Positions 8,281 to 22,182 of a stretch of 64,000 nt of DNA are shown in pieces; position 1 is the stretch's first letter, and every line of letters starts with the position of its first letter. A model generated the notes under the pieces. It did not search any database. It saw only the letters and a list, made by a program, of their open reading frames with translations, and was not told the DNA's origin. The DNA is from Tropicibacter sp. Alg240-R139. GTDB lineage: Bacteria; Pseudomonadota; Alphaproteobacteria; Rhodobacterales; Rhodobacteraceae. The stretch lies in contig NZ_UNRA01000001.1 of NCBI RefSeq assembly GCF_900537075.1, positions 434,001 through 498,000 on the forward strand, given 5' to 3'. A program made the position numbers and the translations under genes.

Positions 8281-9126
8281 TCACATCGGTAGCAAATCCA
8301 AACCTTCTCTGTTGTTATCCACGAAGCTGTACCAGCCACTAAACGCCCCTTCCGGGGTGGTGGTGATCTCGAACAGGTCGAATAGGTCTTCCAGCAATTT
8401 GTGGAAAGGACTTGTGGGATTGAGAGATTTGGGAACATTTATTGTACCCGGTCGACTTCTGCAGATTGCTGCTGCCGCTTCAACCAATCGCCAAGCTTCG
8501 ATTGCTCGCTTTTTGTATTGAATGCCTTCGGGCAATTCCAAGGACGTCTTTTCGATGGCGGGAAGAAGGTGCTCGAAACTTTTACTCAACAACTCAAGCG
8601 ACCTCGATGCGACTTTCGGAGGAAAATCATTTTCTTCAACCGAATATTCTTCGTGATATTTGCTTGGAACGTATTTGCCTCGCACTACTTTCAGAGGCAA
8701 AGTAGCGTTCATCTCCATTTCCATCTGAAGCACCCAGTGGATTGAATTGAACGTTTCAGCCAGTTTTCGAATTTGGTGACTAATTTTCGCTAACTTCTTT
8801 CGTTCCTCTTCGCGGCACCATACTTCAGCCAGTCCAACTTCGTACACAGCCAGAAAATAGCTCGTCATACTAGAGAATTTGTGCGGGCCGAACTTTGAAA
8901 AATGCAGCTCAATAATGTTCGTCACATCGTTGTGCATTCGCCGGGCTTCTTCGGTGTCCCAATCCCAGCTTCTCCGTTCGTGGATTTTCTTCTTCCGAAA
9001 GTGGTCCCGCACGCTCAACTCCTGCCTGAAATCCTCCATCCCAGCTTCACCTTTTATGCGATCTGAGGCAATTTCCAACCGCTGATCGTACGTCACCGCC
9101 TTTCCATGCCACGACAGAAACCGCAA
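8281..9126 (-). CDS. Unknown soluble protein of the accessory region
   Basis: A frame of 281 codons beginning at a TTG (9126) without a good SD. An internal ATG at 9039, after AGGTGA, would give about 252 residues and may be the true start. The protein is helical and charged, with 'KKKIHERRSWDWDTEEARRM' near the N-terminus and several leucine-rich helices later. It has no signal peptide or membrane segment. It lies 54 bases upstream of the HTH gene on the same strand and may be part of the same element. I recognise no family. Confidence 0.5.
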   Translation of the reverse strand: MRFLSWHGKAVTYDQRLEIASDRIKGEAGMEDFRQELSVRDHFRKKKIHERRSWDWDTEEARRMHNDVTNIIELHFSKFGPHKFSSMTSYFLAVYEVGLAEVWCREEERKKLAKISHQIRKLAETFNSIHWVLQMEMEMNATLPLKVVRGKYVPSKYHEEYSVEENDFPPKVASRSLELLSKSFEHLLPAIEKTSLELPEGIQYKKRAIEAWRLVEAAAAICRSRPGTINVPKSLNPTSPFHKLLEDLFDLFEITTTPEGAFSGWYSFVDNNREGLDLLPM

Positions 9127-9286
9127 ACATGCGCAAGTCGAGCGCGGCGGATAGGAGCCTAACTTAGCTGAAATTCGTCATGCGATAACCCCGGCACTAC
9201 AACGGATCTTCGTTCCAACGCCATTTCTCGGCTTTGCCACATGTTTTGAACTGTTAATGAAACTAGTTGCTTGCCAGGCATTTTTT

Positions 9287-10303
9287 TCACGAGCGCCTAG
9301 TTGGCCTTGATGACTTCACGATGTCGCTCAGCGCCTCTGCGGCTATTTTAAAAGATCTTAACCTGGCGGCGTGATCGTGGATCATCCCGGTCACCATCAA
9401 TTCCTCGGGCTGGTATCGCTCAATCAAACGCGCAAGTTCAATCTGAACCGTTTCAGGGCTGCCGGTTGCCGAACAGGAAAGAGCTTGTTCCACCTGCGTG
9501 AGGACTGGCGCTGAAATCTCCGCTGACAGATCCTCGACCGGGAGGGGAAGTTTGCCCGGACGCCCTGTCCGTAAACGAGCGAAGGCAAGCAACTGAGATG
9601 ATCGCAGATACCGTGCTTCATCATCAGTCCCCGCTGCACAGACCCCGGCGGCCAGCATGAAGTACGGTTTCGCAAGCCACTTAGATGGCTGGAACGTCGA
9701 TCTGTAGGTCGCGATCGCGTCCTCAAGCATTGCGGGCGCGAAATGCGAGGCAAACGCGTAAGGCAACCCGAGATAGGCGGCGAGCTGCGCGCCATAAAGG
9801 CTGGAACCGAGTATCCAAACCGGAACATGGGTCCCTTGTCCGGGGACTGCCCGAATTCGCGCCTCGTCTGAAGCGTCTTCAAGATACCCCAAGAGTTCCA
9901 CTACGTCCTGCGGAAAGTTGTCGTTGGCTTCCATGTGCCGTCTGAGGGCCTGCGCTGTCGCCCCGTCGGTGCCCGGAGCACGGCCAAGTCCAAGATCAAT
10001 TCGCTCCGGATAAAGTGTGGCAAGCGTGCCGAACTGTTCGGCAACTACCAGAGGCGCATGGTTTGGCAGCATGATACCCCCGGCACCAACACGGAGGGTC
10101 TTGGTGGCCGACGCGACGGCTCCTATCACGACCGCCGTTGCTGCACTGGCGATGCCCGGCATATTGTGGTGCTCGGCCAGCCAGTAACGATGATAGCCGC
10201 TTGCCTCCGCGTGGCACGCCAAGTCGATTGTATTTCTTAGGGCGTCAGCGACGGTTCCGCCTTCCGGGATCGGTGACAAATCAAGTAAAGAAAAATGATG
10301 CAA
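9287..10303 (-). CDS. LLM-class flavin-dependent oxidoreductase
   Basis: A full-length 338-residue member of the bacterial luciferase-like monooxygenase superfamily (YhbW-like subgroup). It shows the family start '[11 protein letters not shown]', the barrel motif '[18 protein letters not shown]' and '[15 protein letters not shown]', then '[15 protein letters not shown]'. These proteins use reduced flavin and oxygen on unknown substrates. The gene is single and on the minus strand. No partner flavin reductase is nearby. Assignment to the superfamily is firm; the substrate is unknown. Confidence 0.9.
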
Positions 10304-11682: not shown

Positions 11683-12849
11683 TTATCCCAGCGGCATGCG
11701 CCGTTCTGCCATTTCCGCGTACCAGCTACAGCCCACCGGGATTAGCTCATCGTTGAACTCATAGGCCGGATTGTGAAGGTCGGCACTGTCGCCATTGCCG
11801 ATGAAGAGATATGCGCCAGGGCGTACGGCCAGCATTTCGGAGAAGTCTTCGCCCGGCATGACTGGATCGAAGTCGCGGATTACATCGCCGGAGATCACCT
11901 TCGCAACCTCTGCAGCGCACGCGGCAGCCTCTGGGTCATTTACGGTGGGTGGCACGCGCGGGTTGTAGTCCAGATGGGCGTTGGCACCGTGGGCTTGCGC
12001 CGTCAGTTCGGCAATCTCGCGCAGACGCTTTTGAACCATCTCATGTACCCCAGGGTCAAAGTAGCGCACAGTGCCGCGCAATTTAATCTCATCCGGGATG
12101 ACATTGTAGGTATTGCTGTCGCTGCGCAGCCCGCAGGTGGACACAACCACGGACTTCAGTGGGTCGATATTCCGCGCTGCAATGGTTTGCAGAGCCACGA
12201 CCACATGGGCAACAGCCACGGTTGTATCCACAGCCTTGTGAGGCAGAGCTGCATGCCCGCCTTGGCCTTTGATAGTGAGTTCAAAAAACGCCGTGGCGGC
12301 CATCTGCGGACCATCTCGCACGGCAAACTGACCTGCCGGTATCCCCGGCCAGTTGTGCATTCCATATACCTCCTGAATGTCCCAGCGGGTCATCAGCCCA
12401 TCCTCCAGCATTGCGCGAGCGCCACCGCTGCCTTCCTCGGCAGGCTGAAAGATCAGAACCACAGAGCCGTCGAAATTGCGGGTTTCAGCCAGATATTTCG
12501 CCGCGCCCAAGAGCATCGCTGAATGGCCATCATGGCCGCAGGCATGCATAACACCGGGATGGGTCGAAGCGTGGGGTAGACCAGTGGCTTCGGGAATGGG
12601 CAGCGCGTCCATATCCGCGCGGAACCCGATCACTTTGCCCGACCCCCGCGCACGTCCATGAATCACGCCAACAACTCCGGTCCGACCGAAGCCCGTGACC
12701 ACCTCGTCACAGCCGAAACCGGTAAGCAATTCGGCAACCTTGGCCCCGGTGCGGTGTTCCTCGAACCGCAGCTCAGGGTGGGCATGAATGTCCCGCCGCC
12801 ATTCAGTGATCTCAGAGAGCAGTTCGGCAAAGCGGTTTCGGGCGGGCAT
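11683..12849 (-). CDS. M20-family amidohydrolase (aminoacylase/hippurate hydrolase type)
   Basis: A 388-residue M20D metallopeptidase-like amidohydrolase. It has the start 'WRRDIHAHPELRFEEHRTG', the metal motif MHACGHDGHSAML, 'LIFQPAEEGSGGARAM' with the catalytic Glu-Glu, and a C-terminal 'MPGEDFSEM' metal ligand region. The family hydrolyses N-acyl amino acids, hippurate or related amides with two divalent metals. The ATG at 12849 follows AGAGGAG, which excludes the 24-codon N-terminal extension. The gene is intact and cytoplasmic and lies between the antiporter remnant and an integrase gene. Specificity is not visible. Confidence 0.9.
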   Translation of the reverse strand: MPARNRFAELLSEITEWRRDIHAHPELRFEEHRTGAKVAELLTGFGCDEVVTGFGRTGVVGVIHGRARGSGKVIGFRADMDALPIPEATGLPHASTHPGVMHACGHDGHSAMLLGAAKYLAETRNFDGSVVLIFQPAEEGSGGARAMLEDGLMTRWDIQEVYGMHNWPGIPAGQFAVRDGPQMAATAFFELTIKGQGGHAALPHKAVDTTVAVAHVVVALQTIAARNIDPLKSVVVSTCGLRSDSNTYNVIPDEIKLRGTVRYFDPGVHEMVQKRLREIAELTAQAHGANAHLDYNPRVPPTVNDPEAAACAAEVAKVISGDVIRDFDPVMPGEDFSEMLAVRPGAYLFIGNGDSADLHNPAYEFNDELIPVGCSWYAEMAERRMPLG

Positions 12850-12940
12850 GAGTTGCTCCTCTCTTTGTCGGTCGCTCAGATTATGAAGACCGGTCTCCGC
12901 GCCCGCAACAGGATATGCCAACTCCGCCAGTTAAGATGTT

Positions 12941-14020
12941 TCATTGAGCCCAGATCCGAGCCGAAATCTCGTTGCACACGATCTCCATCGACGGCCTAAG
13001 CGCATCGAGCGAGGGCCTTGCATATCTCTGCCCGGTGATCGACAGCGGTGTGTGATTGAGTAACCGACCGACGATCTCCTCCAGCACGCCTGCCTCCATC
13101 GCGACGGTGGCAAAGGTCCGTCGATGGGCGTGTGGGCTCCACTTCAGCTTTTCTGGCCCGGTAACATAGCCCTTGGCGGATTTGGGTGACGGGAAGACCC
13201 AGGTACGGCTCAGCGCCCGCATCGGGGCCAGGATTTCGTGGTGTACTTGGACAATTGGCAGATCGAAGCTCCGGCCATTCTTCGTTACCGGCAAGTGAAT
13301 GCGATCTTCCTCGATCTGCTTCCATTGCAAAGTGAGTGCCTCGGTTTTTCGAAGACCCGTGAATAGAAGAAGCTCGTAGAACACCTTGTGGATCTGATTC
13401 TGAAGGCCGTCCACGTCCTGTCGCCATTCCTGAAGATCTTCGATAATCCTGCCGTCAGGTTTTTCTTCATACCATTCGATGGCTAGCGTTGGGCATTCCG
13501 GCAGATCATAGGTTCGCTTGGCATGATTGTAGATGGACCTGAAATGCCGAAGTGTATGATTGGCCCCTGAAGGTGTTCTGGCCATCTCCTGATGTCGCCG
13601 GACCACCATGGCCTTAGTGATCTCATCCAAAGGCAAACGCATCCAATCCTTGAGGTGTTTGTCCAGCGCGAGACGCGTTGAGTGTTTGTAGTCTTCGGAG
13701 CGCAGCTTGGGCCGCGCCAGGTAGACCTCCGTGGCAGCCTCCAACGTCGGAGCCCCGATCTGAGCCACCTTTCCTGCCCCGCGCCCCATTTCCAACGCTA
13801 GACCCATTGCCGTTTGCCTGGCGGCTTGCGACGAGATCATCGGAAACCGCCCGATCAGAATGCGTTTGGTCTGCCCGCCTATATCCTTCTGGAAGTACCA
13901 GGTCTTGGAACGCTTTCCGACAAAGAGCACCAGTCCCTTGATCTCGGCATCCCAATACTTGTCAGTACCGGTTTTCGACTGGGGCAGTTTCTTCGCAATG
14001 GTTTCGGAGAGCTTGGGCAT
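12941..14020 (-). CDS. Tyrosine recombinase / phage-type integrase
   Basis: A 359-residue integrase. The N-terminal arm-binding region 'WDAEIKGLVLFVGKRSKTWY' is typical of P4-like integrases, and a core-binding helical domain spans about residues 92-170. The catalytic set is complete: Arg224 in TGLRKTEAL, Lys247 in VTKNG, His297 and Arg300 in PHAHRRTFAT, His323 in LLNHT, and Tyr333 in GQRYA. The protein therefore should be active. No tRNA gene or obvious direct repeat is adjacent, so its target site is unknown. It may belong with the AlpA-like/ATPase genes at 6-8 kb, or be the relic of another element. Confidence 0.9.
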   Translation of the reverse strand: MPKLSETIAKKLPQSKTGTDKYWDAEIKGLVLFVGKRSKTWYFQKDIGGQTKRILIGRFPMISSQAARQTAMGLALEMGRGAGKVAQIGAPTLEAATEVYLARPKLRSEDYKHSTRLALDKHLKDWMRLPLDEITKAMVVRRHQEMARTPSGANHTLRHFRSIYNHAKRTYDLPECPTLAIEWYEEKPDGRIIEDLQEWRQDVDGLQNQIHKVFYELLLFTGLRKTEALTLQWKQIEEDRIHLPVTKNGRSFDLPIVQVHHEILAPMRALSRTWVFPSPKSAKGYVTGPEKLKWSPHAHRRTFATVAMEAGVLEEIVGRLLNHTPLSITGQRYARPSLDALRPSMEIVCNEISARIWAQ

Positions 14021-14321
14021 ATCTTTGTCGGCTTTTTGTCGGTTTTTGACTGAATAATGATGAAACTCAGTGCATCAGGATGGCATATAAAAGTCAACAA
14101 ATAGAATGACTAAGAATGAAAGAGAAGTTCTGGGAAACTCAAATCATGAGTTTGGAAGGCTCTTATGATACCATTTCACCATACCCGCCAAGAATTTTTG
14201 TTTGGTAAAACAGCCGGTCTGGGAGGTAAATAGCGATCCGGGCAGAACCGGTCATTACTCTGCAAAAACATCGCCAGCGAATTGAAGTTACTCGGAAAAT
14301 TTCAGAGCAACTTCCACATAG
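14021..14321. other. Intergenic region upstream of the integrase
   Basis: About 300 fairly A/T-rich bases with no gene, tRNA or clear hairpin. TTGTCGG occurs twice within 14 bases at about 14026-14042, next to the integrase start. Confidence 0.4.
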
Positions 14322-15170
14322 CTAGTCGTCGGCGCGAACCAGCTGGCGTTGCTGACCTAGGCCGTCGATCCCTAGCTCCATGACATCGCCAGCTTTCAAG
14401 TACACTGGATCGGGTCTGAACCCCATGCCAACACCCGGCGGTGTCCCGGTTGAAATGACATCCCCTGGATGCAGGGTGAACAACTGACTGAGGTGCGAGA
14501 TAATTTGCGCTACGTTAAAGATCATCTTCGCAGTGTTCCCGGTCTGCATCCGCTGACCGTTGACGTCCAGATACATCGACAGGGCATGCGGGTCCGGCAC
14601 TTCATCGCGTGTCACAAGCCAAGGGCCGGTAGGTCCAAAGGTGTCGCAGGATTTGCCCTTGGTCCATTGCCCTGTCAGATCGAACTGAAAATGCCGCTCA
14701 GTGACGTCATTGACGATGCAATAACCCGCCACGTGGTTCAGCGCTTCGCCTTCGCTGACATACTTTGCCTTGGTCCCGATCACGACGCCCAGTTCGATTT
14801 CCCAATCGGTCTTGGTTGACCTGCGCGGCATCACCACATCATCATTGGGCCCGACGATGGCCGAATTGGCCTTCATGAACAGAATCGGATGTTCGGGGAT
14901 GGGCAATCCAGCCTCAGCAGCATGATCTGAATAGTTCAACCCGATGCACAGGTATTTGCCGATGGAACCGACACAAGGACCCAGGCGTGGACTACCGTCG
15001 ACCACGGCCAGACTATCGGGATCAATGGCGCGCAACTGCTCTAATCCAGTATCCGACAAGGCGACACCCGAGATGTCACCCACGTGAGCAGACAGATCGC
15101 GAATAGTGCCATCATCGGCCAGCAATCCGGGCTTTTCGGCTCCGGCCCCTCCATAGCGCAAAAGTTTCAT
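14322..15170 (-). CDS. Fumarylacetoacetate hydrolase (FAH) family protein
   Basis: A 282-residue FAH-superfamily enzyme. It carries 'CIGLNYSDHAAEAG', 'PILFMKANSAIVGPNDDVVM', the metal-binding acidic set in 'WEIELGVVIG', 'VNDVTERHFQ' and 'ISTGTPPGVGMGF'. Members hydrolyse fumarylpyruvate, acylpyruvates or fumarylacetoacetate, or hydrate/decarboxylate related diketones, usually late in aromatic-ring degradation. The ATG at 15170 follows GGGGAG; the longer start is unlikely. It lies 142 bases past the MBL hydrolase on the same strand and probably belongs to the marR-sulfatase operon. A role in degrading a ring-fission product is inference. Confidence 0.9.
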   Translation of the reverse strand: MKLLRYGGAGAEKPGLLADDGTIRDLSAHVGDISGVALSDTGLEQLRAIDPDSLAVVDGSPRLGPCVGSIGKYLCIGLNYSDHAAEAGLPIPEHPILFMKANSAIVGPNDDVVMPRRSTKTDWEIELGVVIGTKAKYVSEGEALNHVAGYCIVNDVTERHFQFDLTGQWTKGKSCDTFGPTGPWLVTRDEVPDPHALSMYLDVNGQRMQTGNTAKMIFNVAQIISHLSQLFTLHPGDVISTGTPPGVGMGFRPDPVYLKAGDVMELGIDGLGQQRQLVRADD

Positions 15171-15312
15171 GATGTTTGCTCCCCTCATCCCGATCTTAGC
15201 ACGGCCGCATAATCACCGCTCAGAATGCGAGGTCAATGACTGTCCAAAAGGCGGAGGCAAAACACCGACCGCGAGTCGAGGGGAGATAGGAGTGCGCGGT
15301 CGATCTGGTCGA

Positions 15313-16161
15313 TCAGATCTCGAAAACGTCGAGATCTTCGACAATCTTTGCCGGGCCTGCAAAATGCTCCTTCAGCTCGTCATTGGCGCTGGAGTGCCCG
15401 TCTTCGCTGTCCATATGAATACGGAAGTGGGTGATCAGAAGCTCTTTGACACCGGCAGATTGCGCCATCTTGGCGATATGTTCTGGGGTGGGCGAGAATT
15501 CGGCGATCGCTGGATGGATATCATCGGTCGATAAGCGATAGCACCAGTGGATCAGCAAATCTGCGTCCGCCGTCAGTTCAGACAGCGCATCACAGATGCC
15601 GGCATCGCCGGAGTAGACGAACTTCTTGCCGCCCGCCTCGACCGAAAAGGCCATGCAGTCGAATGCAGGTTGGGCGTGGGGCACTTCGCAACTTTTCAGC
15701 TCCCACCCATGTCCCTGATAAGAAAAACCTGGCTTGATCTCGGTTACCTCAGGCGCAGGCCAGGCGCGCGGCAGAGTGCCACCGCGAGCGACCCAGACCT
15801 GTTGGCTGGGAGCCAATTCAGTGCGGGCGTATAGGTCGGGTGACAGCACGCCATCGCGACCAAAATAGCCTTCTGTCATGCGTGCAATCGGGCTCGGACC
15901 CCAAACCTTGAGCGGCGGCGCGCCCTCGTCCCAGGCGGCATGCACCAGGCGGGCGTAATCCATCATGTGGTCGGTGTGCAGATGGGTAAAAAACAGATGC
16001 GTTATATCTTTCGGCAAGCGTCCCGACCGCACGAGGTTGTCGAAAACCCCGCCACCGCAGTCGAACAGGATCTTGTCGTCACCGATTTCCAGCAGGTAAC
16101 CGGTCGAAGCACGGCGGGCGTAAGCTTCGGGAGAGCCCGAGCCAAGAATGGTCAGTTTCAT
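15313..16161 (-). CDS. MBL-fold metallohydrolase (RNase Z-like type)
   Basis: A 282-residue metallo-beta-lactamase-fold hydrolase. Residues 1-25 'MKLTILGSGSPEAYARR' open the fold, THLHTDH (residues 59-65) binds the two metals, and 'VYSGDAGICDALSEL' and 'ELLITHFRIH' supply the Asp and last His. The layout is that of RNase Z/arylsulfatase-type members (long-form, no exosite visible). The ATG at 16161 overlaps the sulfatase stop by one base (TGATG), so the two are translationally coupled and the 45-codon upstream extension is not real. Its job in the locus may be hydrolysis of a lactone, ester or sulfate ester. Confidence 0.85.
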   Translation of the reverse strand: MKLTILGSGSPEAYARRASTGYLLEIGDDKILFDCGGGVFDNLVRSGRLPKDITHLFFTHLHTDHMMDYARLVHAAWDEGAPPLKVWGPSPIARMTEGYFGRDGVLSPDLYARTELAPSQQVWVARGGTLPRAWPAPEVTEIKPGFSYQGHGWELKSCEVPHAQPAFDCMAFSVEAGGKKFVYSGDAGICDALSELTADADLLIHWCYRLSTDDIHPAIAEFSPTPEHIAKMAQSAGVKELLITHFRIHMDSEDGHSSANDELKEHFAGPAKIVEDLDVFEI

Positions 16162-17600
16162 CAGTTTGCTTCCATCTTTGGGGGTGGCGTCGCACCGGGC
16201 GCGCCAAGTTTCAGGGCAGCCTCTCGGCCCCCGTATCTGGCGATCAGGGCAGCCTGATCGTCGAAGGCTTGTTGATTGACCGCATCCGGGTCGCAAATCG
16301 TGCGCAAAGCGGTTTCCATCCTGATCAGAGTTTCGGAATGGGCCGGGTCGTCCGCCAGGTTGTTGAGCTCTTCTGGGTCAGTCTTCAGGTCAAACAGCTC
16401 GGGCGAAAAGCCTATGTAGTGGTGATACTTCCATCGCCCAATTCGCAGCAAGAATGCACCCGACACGGCGCCTGCTGCATGGTACTCCGAAAAGACAGGA
16501 CGCTCTGGCTTGGGTTCTTCAGACACGATTTTGTAAAGCGAACGCACTCCATCCGATGCCTCGAGCGGCGCATCGAAGTGGTCCGCGATGGTGGCGGAAA
16601 CATCCAGCAAGCTCACCGGTGTATCGCAGATACCTTGCCCCACGCCTGGACCCGCCATGATCATCGGGATGGCGGCACTTTCCTGATAGAGGTTGGATTT
16701 CCCCCACAGACCCCGCGCGCCCACGTTGTCACCATGATCCGAGGTGTAGATGACCGTGGTGTCGCCTTTAAAGCCCGCCTGTTTCAGACCCGCCATGATC
16801 TGACCAACGTTATGATCCAACCAACTGCACAGCCCGTAGTAGGACGCTATTGCGGTCAGGCGCTCGCTCTCGTCCTTGAACTTTGCCTCGCTGTCCATGA
16901 ACGCGTTTTGCTTTTCCACCCAAGGGTGGCGCACATATCCGCCGCGCGGGTTCAACTTTGGACCGGGCAGTTGGTCGTGCGGATAAAGATCATAGAATTC
17001 TTGCGGAACCACCAAAGGAAAATGCGGTGCCACCAGCCCGACATAGAGGCACCATGGGCGGTCATCGCTACTGGCTGCACGGTCCTGCAACCATTCAACC
17101 GTGCGCGTTGTCACGGCTGCATCATATTCGGTGTATCTGCTGGTCCCGGGTCCGATGTCGTCACCCAACATCCGGCCCTTGCCCATGATCCGTTCATCTT
17201 CCTTTCGGATCGAGGCCCAGACCATACCAACGCCGCCGGCCACCATCATCGGGATGTGTTCGGTATCAAAACCGGCCGCATCCTCTTCGGCGCGGTAATG
17301 CAGCTTGCCGATACTTTCGACCGGGACATCCTTGCCTTGTAGGGCATGCCCCCACCCAGGGATCGAGCCATCATAGGGCGTGGCATTGTCCCACAGGCGT
17401 GTTTCATGAGCATATCGCCCTGTAGCAAAGCTCGCTCGGGCGGGCACACAGATGGGCGATGGCGTATACGCGTTAGTGAACCTTGTTCCCCGCGCCGCCA
17501 AAGCGTCCAGATGCGGTGTTTTTGCAACCGGATGGCCCTCACACCCCAGAGCACGAGCCTGATGCTCATCCGACATGATCACCAGCAGATTGCCTGTCAT
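16161..17600 (-). CDS. Sulfatase-family hydrolase with formylglycine signature
   Basis: A 479-residue type I sulfatase/alkaline phosphatase-superfamily enzyme. The modification signature ICVPARASFATGR has Cys51, Pro53 and Arg55 (CxPxR), the site of formylglycine conversion. The N-terminal 'VIMSDEHQARALG' carries the first metal ligands and 'IYTSDHGDNVGARGLWGKS' the second set. There is no signal peptide, so it is cytoplasmic. It resembles choline-sulfatase and phosphonate-monoester-hydrolase relatives, but the substrate is unknown. It overlaps marR by four bases (ATGA) and the MBL gene by one. No formylglycine-generating enzyme is in the window. Confidence 0.9.
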   Translation of the reverse strand: MTGNLLVIMSDEHQARALGCEGHPVAKTPHLDALAARGTRFTNAYTPSPICVPARASFATGRYAHETRLWDNATPYDGSIPGWGHALQGKDVPVESIGKLHYRAEEDAAGFDTEHIPMMVAGGVGMVWASIRKEDERIMGKGRMLGDDIGPGTSRYTEYDAAVTTRTVEWLQDRAASSDDRPWCLYVGLVAPHFPLVVPQEFYDLYPHDQLPGPKLNPRGGYVRHPWVEKQNAFMDSEAKFKDESERLTAIASYYGLCSWLDHNVGQIMAGLKQAGFKGDTTVIYTSDHGDNVGARGLWGKSNLYQESAAIPMIMAGPGVGQGICDTPVSLLDVSATIADHFDAPLEASDGVRSLYKIVSEEPKPERPVFSEYHAAGAVSGAFLLRIGRWKYHHYIGFSPELFDLKTDPEELNNLADDPAHSETLIRMETALRTICDPDAVNQQAFDDQAALIARYGGREAALKLGAPGATPPPKMEAN

Positions 17601-18079
17601 GACTGGCTCTCGTCTTCAATCTGCTCCATTGCCAGCTCCAGCTTATCCATCGCTGTGAACATCACTTGGCGCTCAGAGGCGGTCAGGCTTCCCAGCAGTG
17701 CATTCTGACGCGCGCGCATGGCGGGACGTGCCTGCTGGAATATGGCGAAACCGTTGTCGGTGAACTCTACTGTGTGGCTGCGTTGATCCGATTCGCTGCC
17801 CTCGACCGAAATCAGCCCCTCGCGCAGCATGCCTTTGACCGTGCGGCTCACCTGCCCTTTATCAAAGTCCGTGCGCTTGACGATCTGCGCCGGGGTGATC
17901 TTGCCGTGGCTTTCAATCATCACAAATATTCGCCACTGCGACAGCGAAATACCCGCTGTTTCCTTAAGGATTCTAGCAGCTTGCGCATTGAGCTTGGCGT
18001 GAACCCGGCTCAGGCGAAACGTCACCATCTGCTGCAATGGAATGTCAAATTCGGTGTCCGTCACCTGATCCGCTGACAT
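17597..18079 (-). CDS. MarR-family transcriptional regulator
   Basis: A 160-residue MarR winged-helix protein. The DNA-binding core is 'LSQWRIFVMIESHGKITPAQ' followed by 'KRTDFDKGQVSRTVKGMLRE' and the wing 'SESDQRSHTVEFTDNG'. The ATG at 18079 follows GGGAGG with ideal spacing, so the upstream 18 codons are untranslated. It starts the leftward operon with the sulfatase, MBL and FAH genes and faces tctC across 122 bases that hold two matching palindromes. I infer that it represses both directions and is released by the locus substrate or an intermediate. Confidence 0.92.
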   Translation of the reverse strand: MSADQVTDTEFDIPLQQMVTFRLSRVHAKLNAQAARILKETAGISLSQWRIFVMIESHGKITPAQIVKRTDFDKGQVSRTVKGMLREGLISVEGSESDQRSHTVEFTDNGFAIFQQARPAMRARQNALLGSLTASERQVMFTAMDKLELAMEQIEDESQS

Positions 18080-18120
18080 GCGAAACCTCCCTTGTCTTAC
18101 CGTAACCGTGGCATCGTTTA

Positions 18121-18154
18121 GTTGATCCGTCAACTTTTTTGTTGACCAGTCAAC
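18121..18154. promoter_or_regulatory. Paired 14-bp palindromes, likely MarR operators
   Basis: GTTGATCCGTCAAC (18121-18134) and GTTGACCAGTCAAC (18141-18154) are both GTTGA-N4-TCAAC palindromes. Their centres are 20 bases apart, close to two helical turns. They lie in the divergent marR-tctC gap. Sites of this size and symmetry fit a MarR dimer pair. Confidence 0.75.
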
Positions 18155-18201
18155 CTTTTTTGACGCAGGCTTATGAAAACAACACGTTCAGGGAGGAACA
18201 C

Positions 18202-19152
18202 ATGAAACGCACACTGAAAGCGGCCATCGCCGCCATCGGCCTTGCCGTATCTGCAACCGCTGGCATGGCAGCGGACTGGACCCCACCCGGCCCCATCAAA
18301 CTGATGATCGCGTTTCGCGCGGGGGGCGGCGCAGACACACAAGCCCGCCTGATCGCCGAAGCGCTGGAAGAAAAGATGGGATGGAAATTCATCCCCGAAC
18401 AGGTCACCGGCAAGGGTGGCCTGAACATGGCCAACACGCTGAAAGGCCAGCCCAACGACGGCACCGCCATCGGCTTGGCCGTGACGGAAACCTTTGGCTA
18501 CAACATGGCCGCCGCAAATGCAGGCATGTCGCCCGAGGATTTCACCGGTCTGACCACCACTGCAGGCTTCCAGATGGGCATCGTTGCCCCGTCAGGCAAA
18601 GGCTGGTCCAGCTTTGAAGACATGATCGCTGCAGCCAAGGGCGGCCAGGACATCCGCTTTGGCGTCATGAGCCCCAAACTGGCCGATCTGGCCTATCTGC
18701 TCGGCAAGGCGCAAGGCGTCGATTTCAACATCGTGCAGGTCAAGGGCGGCAAGGCCGTGATGAACGGCGTGACCGCTGGCGACCTGGACGTAGGTTTCAT
18801 GGCCGGCATCCAGGCCAAGGGCGTCGCTTCGGGCGATCTGGTCAACCTGGCCTCGGGCCTGTCGCAGCCGCTGGTACAGACACCCGACGCACCGACGATG
18901 GCCGACCTTGGGGTCGACTTTGACTCGGACGGCTATTTTGTCTTTGTGGGCCCTGCTGGCATGCCCGACGACGCGCGCAAAGCCCTGTCCGAGGCCATCG
19001 CTGCTGTGGTGAGCGACGAAAGCTCGAAGGCGGGTGGTCTGGTGAAGAAGGCCTTTGGCGGTTCGGCCACCATTATGGGGAACGATCTGACCCAATTGAT
19101 GTCTGACGACTACAGCAACGCCGGCACCCTGATGGACGCGGCATCAGAATAA
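18202..19152 (+). CDS. tctC: TTT transporter solute-binding protein (TctC family)
   Basis: A 316-residue periplasmic binding protein. The signal peptide (about residues 1-23, ending GMAA) is followed by 'WTPPGPIKLMIAFRAGGGAD', the TctC ligand-loop pattern (P-x-x-AGGG-D). 'VTGKGGLNMANTLKGQ' follows as in the family. It delivers a carboxylated solute to TctAB. The ATG at 18202 follows AGGGAGGA; the 21-codon extension upstream crosses the operator and is rejected. A terminator-like hairpin right after the gene suggests extra binding protein relative to the permease. Solute likely matches the substrate of the divergent sulfatase/FAH operon (inference). Confidence 0.92.
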   Translation: MKRTLKAAIAAIGLAVSATAGMAADWTPPGPIKLMIAFRAGGGADTQARLIAEALEEKMGWKFIPEQVTGKGGLNMANTLKGQPNDGTAIGLAVTETFGYNMAAANAGMSPEDFTGLTTTAGFQMGIVAPSGKGWSSFEDMIAAAKGGQDIRFGVMSPKLADLAYLLGKAQGVDFNIVQVKGGKAVMNGVTAGDLDVGFMAGIQAKGVASGDLVNLASGLSQPLVQTPDAPTMADLGVDFDSDGYFVFVGPAGMPDDARKALSEAIAAVVSDESSKAGGLVKKAFGGSATIMGNDLTQLMSDDYSNAGTLMDAASE

Positions 19153-19168
19153 CTCCCCCCAAACTCGC

Positions 19169-19202
19169 GCGGGACTTGGCCCTAGGCAGTCCCGCCTTTT
19201 TC
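19169..19202 (+). terminator. Intra-operon terminator/attenuator after tctC
   Basis: GCGGGACT (19169-19176) pairs with AGTCCCGC (19188-19195) and is followed by CTTTTTCT. A partial terminator here would raise TctC over TctBA. Confidence 0.75.
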
Positions 19203-19219
19203 TGACTAAGGGGACAGCC

Positions 19220-19783
19220 ATGCGCCATTCCAACGGCAACCTGATCCTGGGTGCGGCAACCATCGCCTTTGCCATTTTGGTTATCTTTATCTGGATCCCG
19301 CTCGACACCCAAACCGGCCTGATCGAAAAGGTGCGCAGACAAGTCACCATCGGTGATGCCCTGGCCCCTACGATTGCTGCCAGCTTCCTGGCCATTGGTG
19401 GCCTCATGCTGGTGCTGTTCGAGCGTAACGCCGACGATCAACCCAAGGTTTCGCCGCAGGATGTGCTTTTTGGCCTGGCTCTGATCGCTTCGATCATCAT
19501 CTCGATTCTGGTGATGCGCTACGCCGGGCCTGCAACGGTTGGGCTATGGAACCTGCTCAGCGGAAGCGAGGCCGAGTACCGATTGCTACGCGATACGGCG
19601 CCCTGGAAATACATCGGCTTCCTACTGGGTGGCACGGTGATGATCACGATGCTGGTATCGCTAGTCGAGGGGCGGCTTCGGGTCAAAACACTGATGATCG
19701 CCTTTATCTCGGTCAGCGTCATGGCCGCAATCTACGACTTGCCGTTCGACGACCTGCTGCTACCCCCCAACGGAGACGTATGA
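19220..19783 (+). CDS. tctB: TTT transporter small membrane subunit (TctB family)
   Basis: A 187-residue membrane protein with four hydrophobic segments (about residues 8-26, 53-70, 88-107 and 137-180 containing two). The topology and position between tctC and tctA identify TctB, the poorly conserved small subunit of tripartite tricarboxylate transporters. AAGGGGA precedes the ATG. The stop TGA is directly followed by the tctA ATG. Confidence 0.9.
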   Translation: MRHSNGNLILGAATIAFAILVIFIWIPLDTQTGLIEKVRRQVTIGDALAPTIAASFLAIGGLMLVLFERNADDQPKVSPQDVLFGLALIASIIISILVMRYAGPATVGLWNLLSGSEAEYRLLRDTAPWKYIGFLLGGTVMITMLVSLVEGRLRVKTLMIAFISVSVMAAIYDLPFDDLLLPPNGDV

Positions 19784-21373
19784 ATGGGAACGCTGGACTA
19801 TATCTGGTTGGGGATTCTGGCTGTCTTTCAGGGGCCAGAGCTGTTTTCGATATTTGGCCTGCCGATCTCTGTAACCCTAGTGATGATCCTGTTCGGGTTT
19901 TTAACCGGGATTGCGGTTGGCGCCACGCCAGGGCTGGCTGGGCCAATCGCCATGGCCATCGCGCTGCCCATTCTGATCTCGATCTTTGGCTACACGCCCG
20001 ACGCCCTGTTGCCTGTCATGGGGTTCCTGATCGGCGTGATGAAAGGGGCGACAATTGGTGGGGCAGTTCCGGCCATCCTGTTCAACACGCCTGGCACGCC
20101 GGATGCCTACATGACCACGCTCGATGGCTATCCGATGACCCAGAAAGGACAAGCCCGCAAGGCCTTGCGCGTGGCGCATTTTGCCTCTGCCTCGGGTGAT
20201 ACATTCTCGGACATTGTGCTGATCATCTGCGCGCCTTTTCTGGCCCTGCTGGTCGAGGCTTATCTGGATTTCCCCGAAAAAACCGCCCTGCTGATCCTGT
20301 CGCTCAGCTTTATTGGTGCAGTGATCGGCGGTTCGCCCGCCAAGGGAGTGCTGTCCACCGGGCTTGGCCTGTTGGCCGTCTACATCGGCACCGGAGAGGA
20401 TTTCTATCCACGCATGTCGATGGGAAGCGACCAACTGAACCAGGGTTTTCCGATTGCCACCTCGGTTCTTGGAGTTCTGATTATCGGCGCGGTGTTCAAG
20501 GAAATGACCGATCTGTGGCACCAACGACGCAGCAGTGGCACCCGCCCTAGTTTCCAAGACGAGGGCAACCAGAGGCTGTCTCGCGCCGAGATTGGTCGAT
20601 TACTGCCTTTCGTCGGACGCTCGGCCCTGATCGGAACCGCGATTGGCGCCTTGCCCGGCATCGGATCGACCCTGGCGGCGACCTTGGGCTACACGGTGGG
20701 CCGCGCCCGTCATGCCCGCACCAAAGCCGAGGGCGCACCTGACTTTGGTGACGGCGCGCCCGAAGGGATTGCCGCGACCGAGGCCGCAAACTCATCCGTG
20801 TCCGGCGCCAATCTGATCCCGGTGCTCAGCTTGGGCATTCCAGGTAACGCGGCGGCCGTGTTTCTGATCCTTGCAGCTGAAAGCATCGGCGGTTTCAACC
20901 CGGGCCCATCGGTCTTTCGCTTTACCCAAGATGTAGTGAACCCAGAACTGGTCATCGCATTTGGCCTGTTCACGGCGATGTTCATCGCCAATGCTCTGAA
21001 CTGGACCATTGGGGGGCTGTTCATGCGCTCAACGGGGATCATGGTGCGCATTCCCAAGCACATCCTGTTGCCAACCGTTCTGCTTCTGACCCTGACCGCG
21101 ATCTATGTGCAGGAAGCCCGGATCGAAGCGATTTGGTTCGCGCTTGGATTCGGCGCCCTAGGCTACGTGATGCGCCTGCTGGCGATATCGCCCCTGCCCT
21201 TCGTGATCGCGTTTATCCTAGGCGGCAAACTTGAAGAAAGTGCGCGTCAGGCTTTTGCCGCCACGGGCGGGGACGCCTGGTTCCTGTTCGGCTCGCCCAT
21301 TTCCATCCTTTTCATCGCAGCTTCGGTCGCGATCATCCTCTTTTCCGCGCGCAGAAAGAAGCAAGAACTATGA
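19784..21373 (+). CDS. tctA: TTT transporter large membrane subunit (TctA family)
   Basis: A 529-residue, multi-spanning TctA. The N-terminal half has the family signature 'GFLTGIAVGATPGLAGPIAM' and the middle has 'GALPGIGSTLAATLGYTVGR' plus 'IPVLSLGIPGNAAAVFLILA'. These two related Gly/Pro motifs form the substrate/sodium sites of the TTT permease. Length is normal (about 500). It begins directly after tctB and overlaps the comA-like gene by four bases (ATGA), so all four genes are one transcript. Confidence 0.93.
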   Translation: MGTLDYIWLGILAVFQGPELFSIFGLPISVTLVMILFGFLTGIAVGATPGLAGPIAMAIALPILISIFGYTPDALLPVMGFLIGVMKGATIGGAVPAILFNTPGTPDAYMTTLDGYPMTQKGQARKALRVAHFASASGDTFSDIVLIICAPFLALLVEAYLDFPEKTALLILSLSFIGAVIGGSPAKGVLSTGLGLLAVYIGTGEDFYPRMSMGSDQLNQGFPIATSVLGVLIIGAVFKEMTDLWHQRRSSGTRPSFQDEGNQRLSRAEIGRLLPFVGRSALIGTAIGALPGIGSTLAATLGYTVGRARHARTKAEGAPDFGDGAPEGIAATEAANSSVSGANLIPVLSLGIPGNAAAVFLILAAESIGGFNPGPSVFRFTQDVVNPELVIAFGLFTAMFIANALNWTIGGLFMRSTGIMVRIPKHILLPTVLLLTLTAIYVQEARIEAIWFALGFGALGYVMRLLAISPLPFVIAFILGGKLEESARQAFAATGGDAWFLFGSPISILFIAASVAIILFSARRKKQEL

Positions 21374-22182
21374 CGCACCTTGCCTTTGACCAAATCCCAG
21401 TCCCTGACCGTGCCACCAAACCGCGACGCACGGGCGTCACGATGATGATTGATTGGGGCATTCCCTTGGCAAGCCAAACTGACATCATCACCAGCCAGGG
21501 GCATCTGGTGGACAAGGCCAAGATAGCTGGCGGCATTCCACGGTTCATGCCACGCGCGCTGTTGATGCAGAAACTGGCGGCCTACAAAGCAGCTGATATT
21601 TCGACCGCCAACGGTGGGCTTTTCACTGAATTGGCACTGGCACAAGGTACGTTTGACGCGTTGCTGCGCGAGATGGCCGAGGTTGGTTTCGCCTCTGTCG
21701 AAGTGTCAGAAAACCTTCAACCGCTGAGCACGATGGACAAAACCAATGCAGTGCGTCACGCCAAGCAAAGCTATGGTCTGGATGTGTTGGGTGAAGTTGG
21801 ACGCAAAGAAGGTGAGATGACTGATGATGAGATCATGGAAGACGTCGAAACCTATCTGAATGCCGGCGTCTCTTCGGTCTATTTAGAGGCCAACGAGCTG
21901 TTTGATGGGGACAGCGCGCGTGAAGGGTTGATCCGCCGACTGGCTGACAATTTCCCGCCAGAGGTGTTGATTTTTGAACTGCCTGTGGACGTTATTCCTG
22001 GCATCACAAAGTCGATCAAACACAAAACCGCTTCGCAGATGGTGGCGACGTTGGGCACCGATGTGAACCTGGCCAATTTGGAGCACGACGAGATTTATCT
22101 GCTGGAATGCCTGCGCCTTGGTGTTGCCGGGGACACACGGCACGCTCATGGCGCTTTCCGGCTAGCCGGTATCGGTGCCTGA
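21370..22182 (+). CDS. ComA-like phosphosulfolactate synthase family protein
   Basis: A 270-residue TIM-barrel protein of the ComA family, whose founder makes (2R)-phospho-3-sulfolactate from phosphoenolpyruvate and sulfite in coenzyme M synthesis. Family-like stretches are 'RRTGVTMMIDWGIPLASQ', 'DKAKIAGGIPRFMPRALL', 'STANGGLFTELALAQG', 'VGFASVEVSENLQPLS' and 'VYLEANELFDG'. The ATG overlaps tctA by four bases, so it is co-expressed with a carboxylate transporter and probably co-regulated with a sulfatase. Its role may be C-S bond formation or cleavage of a sulfonate, but other C-C or C-S lyase chemistry is possible. Some bacterial ComA homologues have unknown function. Confidence 0.75.
   Translation: MTHLAFDQIPVPDRATKPRRTGVTMMIDWGIPLASQTDIITSQGHLVDKAKIAGGIPRFMPRALLMQKLAAYKAADISTANGGLFTELALAQGTFDALLREMAEVGFASVEVSENLQPLSTMDKTNAVRHAKQSYGLDVLGEVGRKEGEMTDDEIMEDVETYLNAGVSSVYLEANELFDGDSAREGLIRRLADNFPPEVLIFELPVDVIPGITKSIKHKTASQMVATLGTDVNLANLEHDEIYLLECLRLGVAGDTRHAHGAFRLAGIGA

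Follow-up and report, generated by a model that had tools for sequence, protein, structure and literature searches.

In choline-O-sulfate catabolism (BetC; 6fny), a small ester is imported intact, a cytosolic formylglycine sulfatase of the S1 type acts on it and the carbon skeleton is used; the pathway employs a choline transporter and BetI. The locus described here lies within the window, i.e. the whole 64-kb stretch of DNA that was analysed, and resembles that system in its sulfatase, but has a tripartite tricarboxylate transporter (TTT) importer and a MarR-family regulator. In gene order and in its TctA and TctC families the importer is like the described TctCBA systems with Bug receptors, although its receptor is divergent (44 bits) and its TctB weak. 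Two further proteins recall other known systems: a ComA-like enzyme has the fold of phosphosulfolactate (PSL) synthase, represented by ComA of M. jannaschii (1qwg) and YitD of B. subtilis (1u83), and an FAA-hydrolase family protein (FAH) is closest to the hydrolase of the L-rhamnose/L-fucose diketo-hydrolase pathway (8gsr). From sequence comparison, we give a probability of roughly 0.5 to the reading that the genes of the locus, under MarR control, serve to take up and degrade a small hydroxy-carboxylate bearing an O-sulfate group. The features of the locus are as follows.

14322-15188 as called, or 14322-15170 with the likely true start at 15170, minus strand: FAH; PF01557, 251.9 bits
15313-16161, minus strand: MBL-fold hydrolase, RNase Z-like, HxHxDH motif (read by eye); PF12706
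16161-17600, minus strand: S1-type formylglycine sulfatase, CVPAR motif; PF00884, 149 bits
17597-18079, minus strand: MarR-family regulator; PF12802 (MarR_2), 53.6 bits
18121-18154, no strand: twin operator GTTGA-N4-TCAAC in the divergent gap, centres 20 bp apart
18202-19152, plus strand: tctC, periplasmic solute receptor of the TTT system; PF03401, 44 bits
19220-19783, plus strand: tctB, small membrane subunit; PF07331, 21.2 bits against a gathering score of 29.1
19784-21373, plus strand: tctA, permease; PF01970, 308 bits
21370-22182, plus strand: ComA-like TIM-barrel enzyme; PF02679, 173.5 bits against a gathering score of 25.2

The matches to PF01557, PF12706, PF00884, PF12802, PF03401, PF01970 and PF02679 exceed the Pfam gathering scores. 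TctC, TctB and TctA are encoded together, the first and last above gathering and TctB below it but in place; the name TctB thus rests on position and size, and the position is conserved in relatives. The gene overlaps given in the earlier note are correct to the base: 4 for marR/sulfatase (17597-17600), 1 for sulfatase/MBL (16161) and 4 for tctA/comA (21370-21373). The MBL and FAH genes are 124 bases apart, or 142 if FAH starts at 15170.

The divergent set, with marR, sulfatase and MBL genes on one arm and tctCBA and comA on the other, is also present in L012, L013 (possibly misbinned), L025, L026 and L027, and in reshuffled form in L015. Carriers of the layout belong to the same genus and to Roseobacter and Hyphomicrobiales MAGs; in another genus the layout is retained with comA broken, and in Sulfitobacter brevis the gene set is reshuffled. 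According to the earlier note, its proposal would be refuted if the association were unique to one genome; the neighbourhood comparison shows that the layout, with its ComA-like, TctA and sulfatase genes, recurs in others, so the proposal survives this check. Between the window and its congeners used for comparison (L025 and L027), dN/dS is 0.03-0.10 for each gene compared (comA against L025 only), which indicates that these are not chance open reading frames. The gene cluster is a real, conserved set, and its description as a single divergent unit under one MarR, operators included, is upheld by the same set in relatives, the retained operators and the low dN/dS. Synteny with both congeners stops at 14149, beyond which sit genes for an M20 amidohydrolase (11683-12921) and an integrase (12941-14020); both were rejected as pathway members, having no match in L025 or L027. 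Full-text literature searches, judged by titles and abstract openings, returned no prior description of the gene set, and in the available part of PMC12421959 ComA appears in the reference list only.

The 64-kb window has two copies of the palindrome GTTGANNNNTCAAC, where 0.09 would be expected by chance. They lie at 18121-18134 and 18141-18154, both inside the divergent gap with a spacer of 6 bases, and the whole genome has three sites of the motif. The gaps of relatives carry two copies each in L012, L013, L025 and L027 and one each in L015 and L026, so that the twin operators proposed from the window sequence are both present and conserved alongside the regulator. The motif is absent from the gaps of eight more distant loci (L131, L132, L159, L160, L163, L164, L165 and L166), which makes the operator specific to the window's branch. 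The gap of L159 has a different palindrome.

The sulfatase has both the C-x-P-x-R maturation motif and the PF00884 domain of formylglycine (S1) sulfatases, and its residues C51, P53, R55, K99 and H101 are conserved in 98-100% of 44 alignment rows. With no signal peptide seen by eye, the protein is probably cytosolic. A phylum-wide sample of 398 genomes, in each of which no more than four candidates were scored, had it in only 3 at E 1e-90, its own genome counted. Although its three best solved relatives are choline sulfatases, it scores below the BetC choline sulfatase model TIGR03417 (274.4 versus 433.45 bits), and the Val and Glu of choline sulfatase 6fny are replaced by Arg103 (95% of the 44 rows) and Arg367 (100%), a change that suits an anionic substrate. 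Members of the alkaline phosphatase superfamily are promiscuous, and the protein has a further match, well below the cut-off, to the model for the phosphoric/sulfuric ester hydrolase PehA; it is nevertheless quite improbable that it hydrolyses phosphoric or phosphonic esters, or that its role is to scavenge sulfur and not to take part in carbon catabolism, given the CVPAR motif, the choline sulfatases among its relatives, an FGE gene near the sulfatases in L165, L166, L169 and L173, and ten proteins scanned at the locus that include no phosphonate gene product. The window's genome itself encodes a protein of the FGE-sulfatase family (234 bits at G000:C2), a candidate for the maturation enzyme, although the family is broad.

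The comparison came upon 20 loci whose sulfatase has 60% or more identity to that of the window (L170 ends at a contig edge; L171/L172 and L165/L173 are near pairs). MarR is found in 19 of them and TctA in 18, and the core of the module is marR, the formylglycine-type sulfatase and the TTT importer. A GlcD/LldD-type (glycolate/lactate-type) 2-hydroxyacid oxidase is encoded at seven of these loci, and comA or its remnant at seven others. Taken with the core gene set, the oxidases point to an O-sulfated hydroxy acid. The mutual exclusion of comA and GlcD/LldD has a Fisher P of 0.044 over the 20 phylogenetically non-independent loci (0.011 over the first 16), and the idea that one replaces the other is weakened by L033, where ComA and a GlcD homologue (31%) share one stretch, about 8 kb apart. 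In Sulfitobacter sp. SK012, L159 encodes MBL and GlcD proteins, and L159, L160 and L161 gave no ComA match. GlcD/LldD genes are also present at 6 of 38 other sulfatase loci, one at just 25% identity. For more distant sulfatases, TctA is found at 6 of 34 loci, against 2.7% expected per locus (P ~3e-4); these 34 are the loci fetched, fewer than those listed (G931 and G905, for example, are left out), and some come from genomes picked for having ComA. The class-wide sample alone gives 3 of 20 (P 0.015), and all such co-occurrence P values count related loci as independent. The sulfatase-TTT linkage recurs beyond the window's genus, a pattern consistent with import of a sulfated organic acid followed by its desulfation, and the TTT-MarR-sulfatase module is carried on plasmids of several Rhodobacterales.

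Some neighbours suggest different acids and count against the hydroxy-carboxylate reading. Homogentisate genes (hmgA, fahA and maiA) adjoin the cluster of Sulfitobacter mediterraneus (L166; sulfatase 51%), L120 has a diaminopropionate ammonia-lyase neighbour and L121 a class II aldolase. The first of these raises the alternative that the imported compound is a sulfate ester of an aromatic (phenolic) carboxylate, from which the sulfatase would free a phenolic acid; MarR would sense this acid, as is the way of HpaR-like MarR proteins. The regulator (P0004) does match the models for HpaR and for BilQ, in each case below the cut-off, and the PDB matches of TctC, among them Bug27 (E=1.4e-11), include the terephthalate-binding receptors 8hk9, 8hka and 8hkb. 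We consider a phenolic substrate unlikely, as the recurrent partners at the 60% loci are GlcD/LldD oxidases, the window's FAH is nearest to a sugar-acid diketo hydrolase, and none of the ten proteins scanned was named as a ring-cleaving enzyme.

The second candidate class in the earlier note was sulfonated acids, and the note gave the joining of PEP and sulfite as the reaction of ComA. Comparison with known ComA supports the fold: the AlphaFold model (pLDDT 81) has 1qwg as its best PDB match, with a TM-score of 0.80 when normalised to the query and 0.86 when normalised to the target length, at 29% identity. The family-wide acidic and lysine residues are kept as well (Asp28, Lys51, Glu87, Glu111, Ser113, Glu142, Lys146, Glu173, Glu176, Glu203, Asn233 and Asn236). 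The sequence departs from ComA and YitD in that EANELF and SEN stand in place of the E-[GA]-R-E-S-G motif and the S-[DN]-G glycine common to M. jannaschii ComA, B. subtilis YitD and CoM-cluster homologues, and there is an extra stretch after Glu203 (ELP...). The gene also sits with an importer and a sulfatase and not in a coenzyme M cluster. Loss of the RESG motif and the SxG glycine makes PEP plus sulfite chemistry unlikely, and on this ground a working PSL synthase was rejected for the locus; the score against the archaeal PSL synthase model TIGR03849, 139.6 bits for a cut-off of 280, agrees, although bacterial PSL synthases may also fall short of it. It is accordingly very improbable that the locus encodes a sulfonate pathway in which the ComA-like protein makes or breaks a carbon-sulfonate bond, PF02679 membership notwithstanding: its partner is by family a sulfate-ester hydrolase, and the ten proteins scanned include no CoM-type lyase like those in L022-L024. 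Nor does Pfam assign any of the ten to sulfite handling, as would be expected if sulfate is released. The sulfonated half of the original proposal is not supported.

From the residues retained and lost, the ComA-like protein is most likely a metal-dependent lyase or dehydratase. Its gene is broken in L026 and L027, where the other reading frames are open, which implies that the step is non-essential to the module, and comA looks like an accessory member. Association with TctA and the sulfatase extends to distantly related, non-orthologous ComA-like genes: of 28 such loci (L028-L034 and L060-L080), TctA lies in the stretch at nine (2.6% expected, P ~2e-8) and this sulfatase subfamily at three (P ~3e-7, or 1e-4 with a stricter background). 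The sulfatase background takes each genome as 3.7 Mb. Window orthologues were excluded from this set. So were L055 and L056 (below the family cut-off), L017, whose contig is that of L029, and L016, L018 and L020-L024, which had been found in other ways.

FAH has 8gsr as its best PDB match (E=1.8e-99), and its nearest relative is 2,4-diketo-3-deoxy-L-rhamnonate hydrolase, although it falls under the cut-off of the NCBIfam model for 2,4-didehydro-3-deoxy-L-rhamnonate hydrolase (NF053535; 430.4 bits against 500). Among loci with the layout it is confined to the genus (L025 and L027) and absent from L012, L013, L015 and L026, while FAH matches in L131 and L132 (28-31%) are of another kind; it was therefore dropped as a core member and is not integral to the set. 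That same FAH suggests a sulfated deoxy-sugar acid of the fuconate or rhamnonate type, which is a narrower version of the hydroxy-carboxylate reading: a sulfatase, a lactonase, a dehydratase-like ComA and FAH would act in turn, the last giving pyruvate and lactate from a 2,4-diketo-3-deoxy acid. Beside the ComA-like gene of L018 lie an FAH homologue (65%), an IlvD/Edd dehydratase and an SDR, a gene of L123 has L-fuconolactonase as its closest match (under cut-off), and an SMP-30 gene adjoins the sulfatase in L120. The narrower version is rather unlikely in view of the loci with no FAH of the window's type, and the other enzymes of the L-rhamnose/L-fucose pathway, including its dehydratase and dehydrogenase, are not among the ten proteins scanned. 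The MBL protein, 95.7% identical in L025, has as its top Foldseek match the MBL-fold arylsulfatase 8gyg (on a model of pLDDT 71; sixth by profile), followed by YhfI, ELAC-like proteins and RNase Z. Identity as RNase Z itself was rejected (TIGR02651, 98.3 versus 292.95 bits).

For the O-sulfated hydroxy-carboxylate, the following route may be proposed. MarR would bind the twin operators and repress both arms until a pathway acid is present. TctCBA, judging from its family and recurrent linkage, would import the sulfated acid intact, and the cytosolic sulfatase would cleave the ester to sulfate and a hydroxy acid. Another hydrolysis would fall to the MBL protein, acting either as a further sulfatase or as a lactone/ester hydrolase. 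The hydroxy acid would then become a 2-keto acid, a step for which several relatives encode the GlcD-/LldD-type oxidase; the window's branch may instead rely on the ComA-like enzyme, whose residues suggest that it would take the alpha proton beside a metal-bound carboxylate and eliminate a beta substituent, much as if the PSL synthase reaction ran backwards, though with neither PEP nor sulfite involved. In the window's genus, FAH would finally split a diketo-acid into pyruvate and a smaller acid, if it acts like its nearest characterised relative.

Aerosol, algae and the breakdown of polysaccharides all supply the sea with small sulfated organic acids, and to our knowledge the enzymes that import and desulfate them whole are poorly known. 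The recurrent TTT-MarR-sulfatase module offers a concrete genetic handle on their use. Glycolate and lactate sulfates occur in aerosol, and a wider, tentative proposal is that many bacterial ComA-like proteins outside CoM clusters might be unrecognised catabolic metal-dependent lyases or dehydratases acting on 2-hydroxy (or 2-acyloxy) carboxylates, one of which would here work alongside a cytosolic sulfatase and a TTT importer; together they would form a pathway, so far undescribed, that degrades sulfated 2-hydroxy acids such as those two esters. If so, the label 'phosphosulfolactate synthase' would be misleading on many bacterial genes, and this TIM-barrel family would have a new reaction still to be described.

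All eight genes of the divergent locus lie where the earlier note had placed them, within 14322-22182 and with the same overlaps: FAH (FAA-hydrolase family), MBL (metallo-beta-lactamase fold), sulfatase and marR on the minus strand, and tctC, tctB, tctA (tripartite tricarboxylate transporter, TTT) and the ComA-like gene comA on the plus strand. Pfam backs every gene name except TctB, whose score falls under the family gathering score. The twin operators noticed earlier are present as two GTTGA-N4-TCAAC sites with centres 20 bp apart; 0.09 are expected by chance in the whole window, and three occur genome-wide. The eight-gene layout with its operators is thus confirmed, and dN/dS of its genes against two congeners is 0.03-0.10 (comA against L025 only). 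Coordinates of further features are as follows.

12941-14020, minus strand, phage-integrase-family gene, its start 129 bases from the end of synteny
14149, end of synteny with both congeners (L025, L027)
18080-18201, divergent gap between marR and tctC, holding both operator sites

An integrated element seems to have been inserted just past FAH (12941-14149); no tRNA gene was found in the window.

The sulfatase carries the C-x-P-x-R maturation motif, shows no signal peptide by eye, and is accompanied in its genome by a protein of the formylglycine-type sulfatase maturation enzyme (FGE) family. Its Arg103 and Arg367, Val and Glu in choline sulfatase, agree with an anionic substrate. Homologues at E 1e-100 occur in 27 of 372 class-wide genomes (own counted; scoring was limited to four candidates in each genome). 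Outside the window's branch, TctA lies within the stretch at 6 of 34 fetched sulfatase loci, against an expectation of 2.7% at each (P about 3e-4); part of these loci came from genomes chosen for carrying ComA, and the class-wide sample alone gives 3 of 20 (P 0.015). In two genomes of a different family (G763 and G867; L131, L132), marR-sulfatase (68-69%) is divergent from tctCBA (TctA 64-66%), and neither ComA nor MBL was found at these loci. The clearest arrangements lie on plasmids of named isolates (// marks divergence): sulfatase2-tctABC // marR-sulfatase-MBL with a GlcD-like gene adjoining on one plasmid of Sulfitobacter sp. SK012; tctCBA // marR-sulfatase-GlcD-like on another of its plasmids and in Paracoccus seriniphilus; and LldD-type oxidase-sulfatase2-tctABC // marR-sulfatase, plus an FGE gene, in Alisedimentitalea scapharcae and strain M382.

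Among the loci covered, those whose sulfatase reaches at least 60% identity, the window counted, make a set of 20. Of these, 19 carry MarR, 18 TctA, eight MBL, seven ComA or a remnant, and seven a 2-hydroxyacid oxidase of GlcD or LldD type (GlcD calls all below the equivalog cut-off, the LldD call above a subfamily cut-off). ComA and oxidase never occur together in this set (0/20, Fisher P 0.044; most loci with ComA fall into a single branch of the sulfatase tree). Among 38 less similar sulfatase loci, 6 have an oxidase match. Loci of this subfamily often hold another S1 sulfatase as a partner, always of a single kind (57-71% to the L131 protein; L123, L124, L125, L126, L131, L143, L170); in L124-L126 a MarR gene lies between the two, which are transcribed divergently. 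Elsewhere in the window's own genome (L086, C7), a gene for an AMP-binding enzyme is immediately followed by another sulfatase of the subfamily (43-44%), suggesting another sulfated acid.

ComA-like genes are rare: of 390 order-level genomes 4 hold PF02679 above cut-off, and of 385 class-level genomes 17; the window's ComA-like protein as query matches 9 of 394 family genomes at E 1e-3 (own counted throughout), with one close match among the nine, a congener at 90%. In the genus it matches 3 of 4 (own counted), G394 by a remnant only. A contig scan for the protein gave seven loci. When window proteins were compared with fetched loci by tblastn, this divergent arrangement was found in the congeners L025 and L027, in a Roseobacter MAG (L012, ComA 73%), in a Hyphomicrobiales MAG (L013, 68%) and in a different genus (L026). 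The combination marR-sulfatase-MBL // tctCBA-comA, described earlier from a single genome, therefore recurs beyond it, but FAH, counted then as part of the locus, stands alongside in L025 and L027 only. In Sulfitobacter brevis (L015) marR-sulfatase-MBL-comA runs one way and tctCBA the other, and this reshuffled order argues for functional linkage; its comA is split across the ends of two contigs (L014, L015), in a layout unlike that of other relatives. Most of comA is gone in G394 (L027), and in G200 (L026) it has a big internal loss and a stop; since the remaining ORFs are open in both, comA seems to be an accessory element.

Outside the window's branch, TctA lies within the stretch at 9 of 28 ComA loci (2.6% expected, P about 2e-8) and this sulfatase subfamily at three (P about 3e-7, or 1e-4 using the density in ComA-bearing genomes), P values that count related loci as independent. 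These three are L033, with GntR-ComA-TctC-TctB-TctA-sulfatase on one strand (GntR, TctB, TctC by eye); L078, with ComA (54% identical) divergent from TctC-sulfatase (TctC by Pfam); and L079, with GntR-ComA-TctC-TctA convergent with the sulfatase (GntR, TctC by eye). Other ComA neighbours include MmgE/PrpD-like genes (L066, L069 by eye; L080 scanned), TAXI transporter genes (L029, scanned) and, flanking ComA in L077, an S15 hydrolase (scanned) before it and an RNase Z-like MBL (by eye) after it. In L066 and L069 the ComA-like gene adjoins two or three MmgE/PrpD-like genes and one ornithine-cyclodeaminase-like gene (by eye), and TctA is within the stretch there and in L065. A protein of about 750 residues recurs near ComA-like genes without a close sulfatase (L028, DUF3604 match; L029, L032, L077, resemblance by eye). 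On an Arthrobacter ERGS1:01 plasmid (L021) the flanks are a CocE/NonD hydrolase on one side and thioredoxin reductase, thioredoxin and a UGSC (seleno)protein family gene on the other.

The likeness to ComA holds for the fold: the predicted structure (pLDDT 81) best matches M. jannaschii ComA (1qwg; TM 0.80/0.86, 29% identity), and twelve residues equal those of phosphosulfolactate synthases (Asp28, Lys51, Glu87, Glu111, Ser113, Glu142, Lys146, Glu173, Glu176, Glu203, Asn233, Asn236), but the motif arginine is missing. An alignment of 40 proteins told three kinds apart. In six, both S-[DN]-G and E-[GA]-R-E-S-G are intact (those of M. jannaschii, B. subtilis (YitD) and L062, and the Mycolicibacterium, Nocardioides and Xanthobacter proteins from CoM clusters); two (L063, L064) retain the glycine and the arginine but have EGRADASA; and 32, the window's included, are without the arginine of the second motif, the glycine being Asn in 23 and another residue in nine. 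L063 and L064 form a small branch with EGRADASA replacing RESG, and in L063 ComA (9349-10155) follows a gene (8624-9328) that by eye is ComB-like, a 2-phosphosulfolactate phosphatase. In L065, L066 and L069 Glu173 and Glu203 are replaced by Gln, perhaps a further reaction type. The M. jannaschii structure is reportedly enolase-like, from which we infer that the window's protein might act on a hydroxy acid by abstracting its alpha proton with the help of a metal and by beta-elimination.

Of all the proteins in the set, MBL differs least between the window and L025 (95.7%); in L013 this does not hold. It carries an HxHxDH motif. A curated model ruled out RNase Z. The top fold match is the MBL-fold arylsulfatase 8gyg, with several RNase Z-like proteins nearly equal (model pLDDT 71), and 8gyg ranks sixth by profile. 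Because the TTT arm ends with an additional S1 sulfatase in several relatives (L131, L159, L165, L166, L170, L173), MBL may be a second sulfatase; L159, which has both, counts against this. The alternative, a lactonase, would fit the SMP-30 gene (L120) and fuconolactonase-like gene (L123) beside the sulfatase. The closest relative of FAH is 2,4-diketo-3-deoxy-L-rhamnonate hydrolase, and a 65% homologue in L018 belongs to a dehydratase-SDR-FAH set adjoining a ComA-like gene.

For the pathway as a whole we infer that TctCBA would import an O-sulfated hydroxy acid, sulfate would be removed in the cytosol, and MBL would perform a second hydrolysis; the product would be converted to a 2-keto acid, in several relatives by the flavin 2-hydroxyacid oxidase and in the window's branch perhaps by the ComA-like enzyme, with FAH cleavage as the putative last step in this genus. 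Gene content and order, the operators, selection, the kept and lost residues, and recurrence are established by the analysis; every substrate and reaction in the scheme is putative. Contrary to this scheme are the decay of comA in two relatives, the restriction of FAH to the genus, the joint presence of ComA and GlcD in the more distant L033, and mixed neighbours (homogentisate genes in L166, diaminopropionate ammonia-lyase in L120, class II aldolase in L121).

The component families are already known. A full-text literature search, with most subscription journals outside its reach, found no description of this gene combination; neither it nor a catabolic role for ComA-like proteins seems to have been described so far. 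The locus itself is placed within a known kind of metabolism, the catabolism of small organosulfates.
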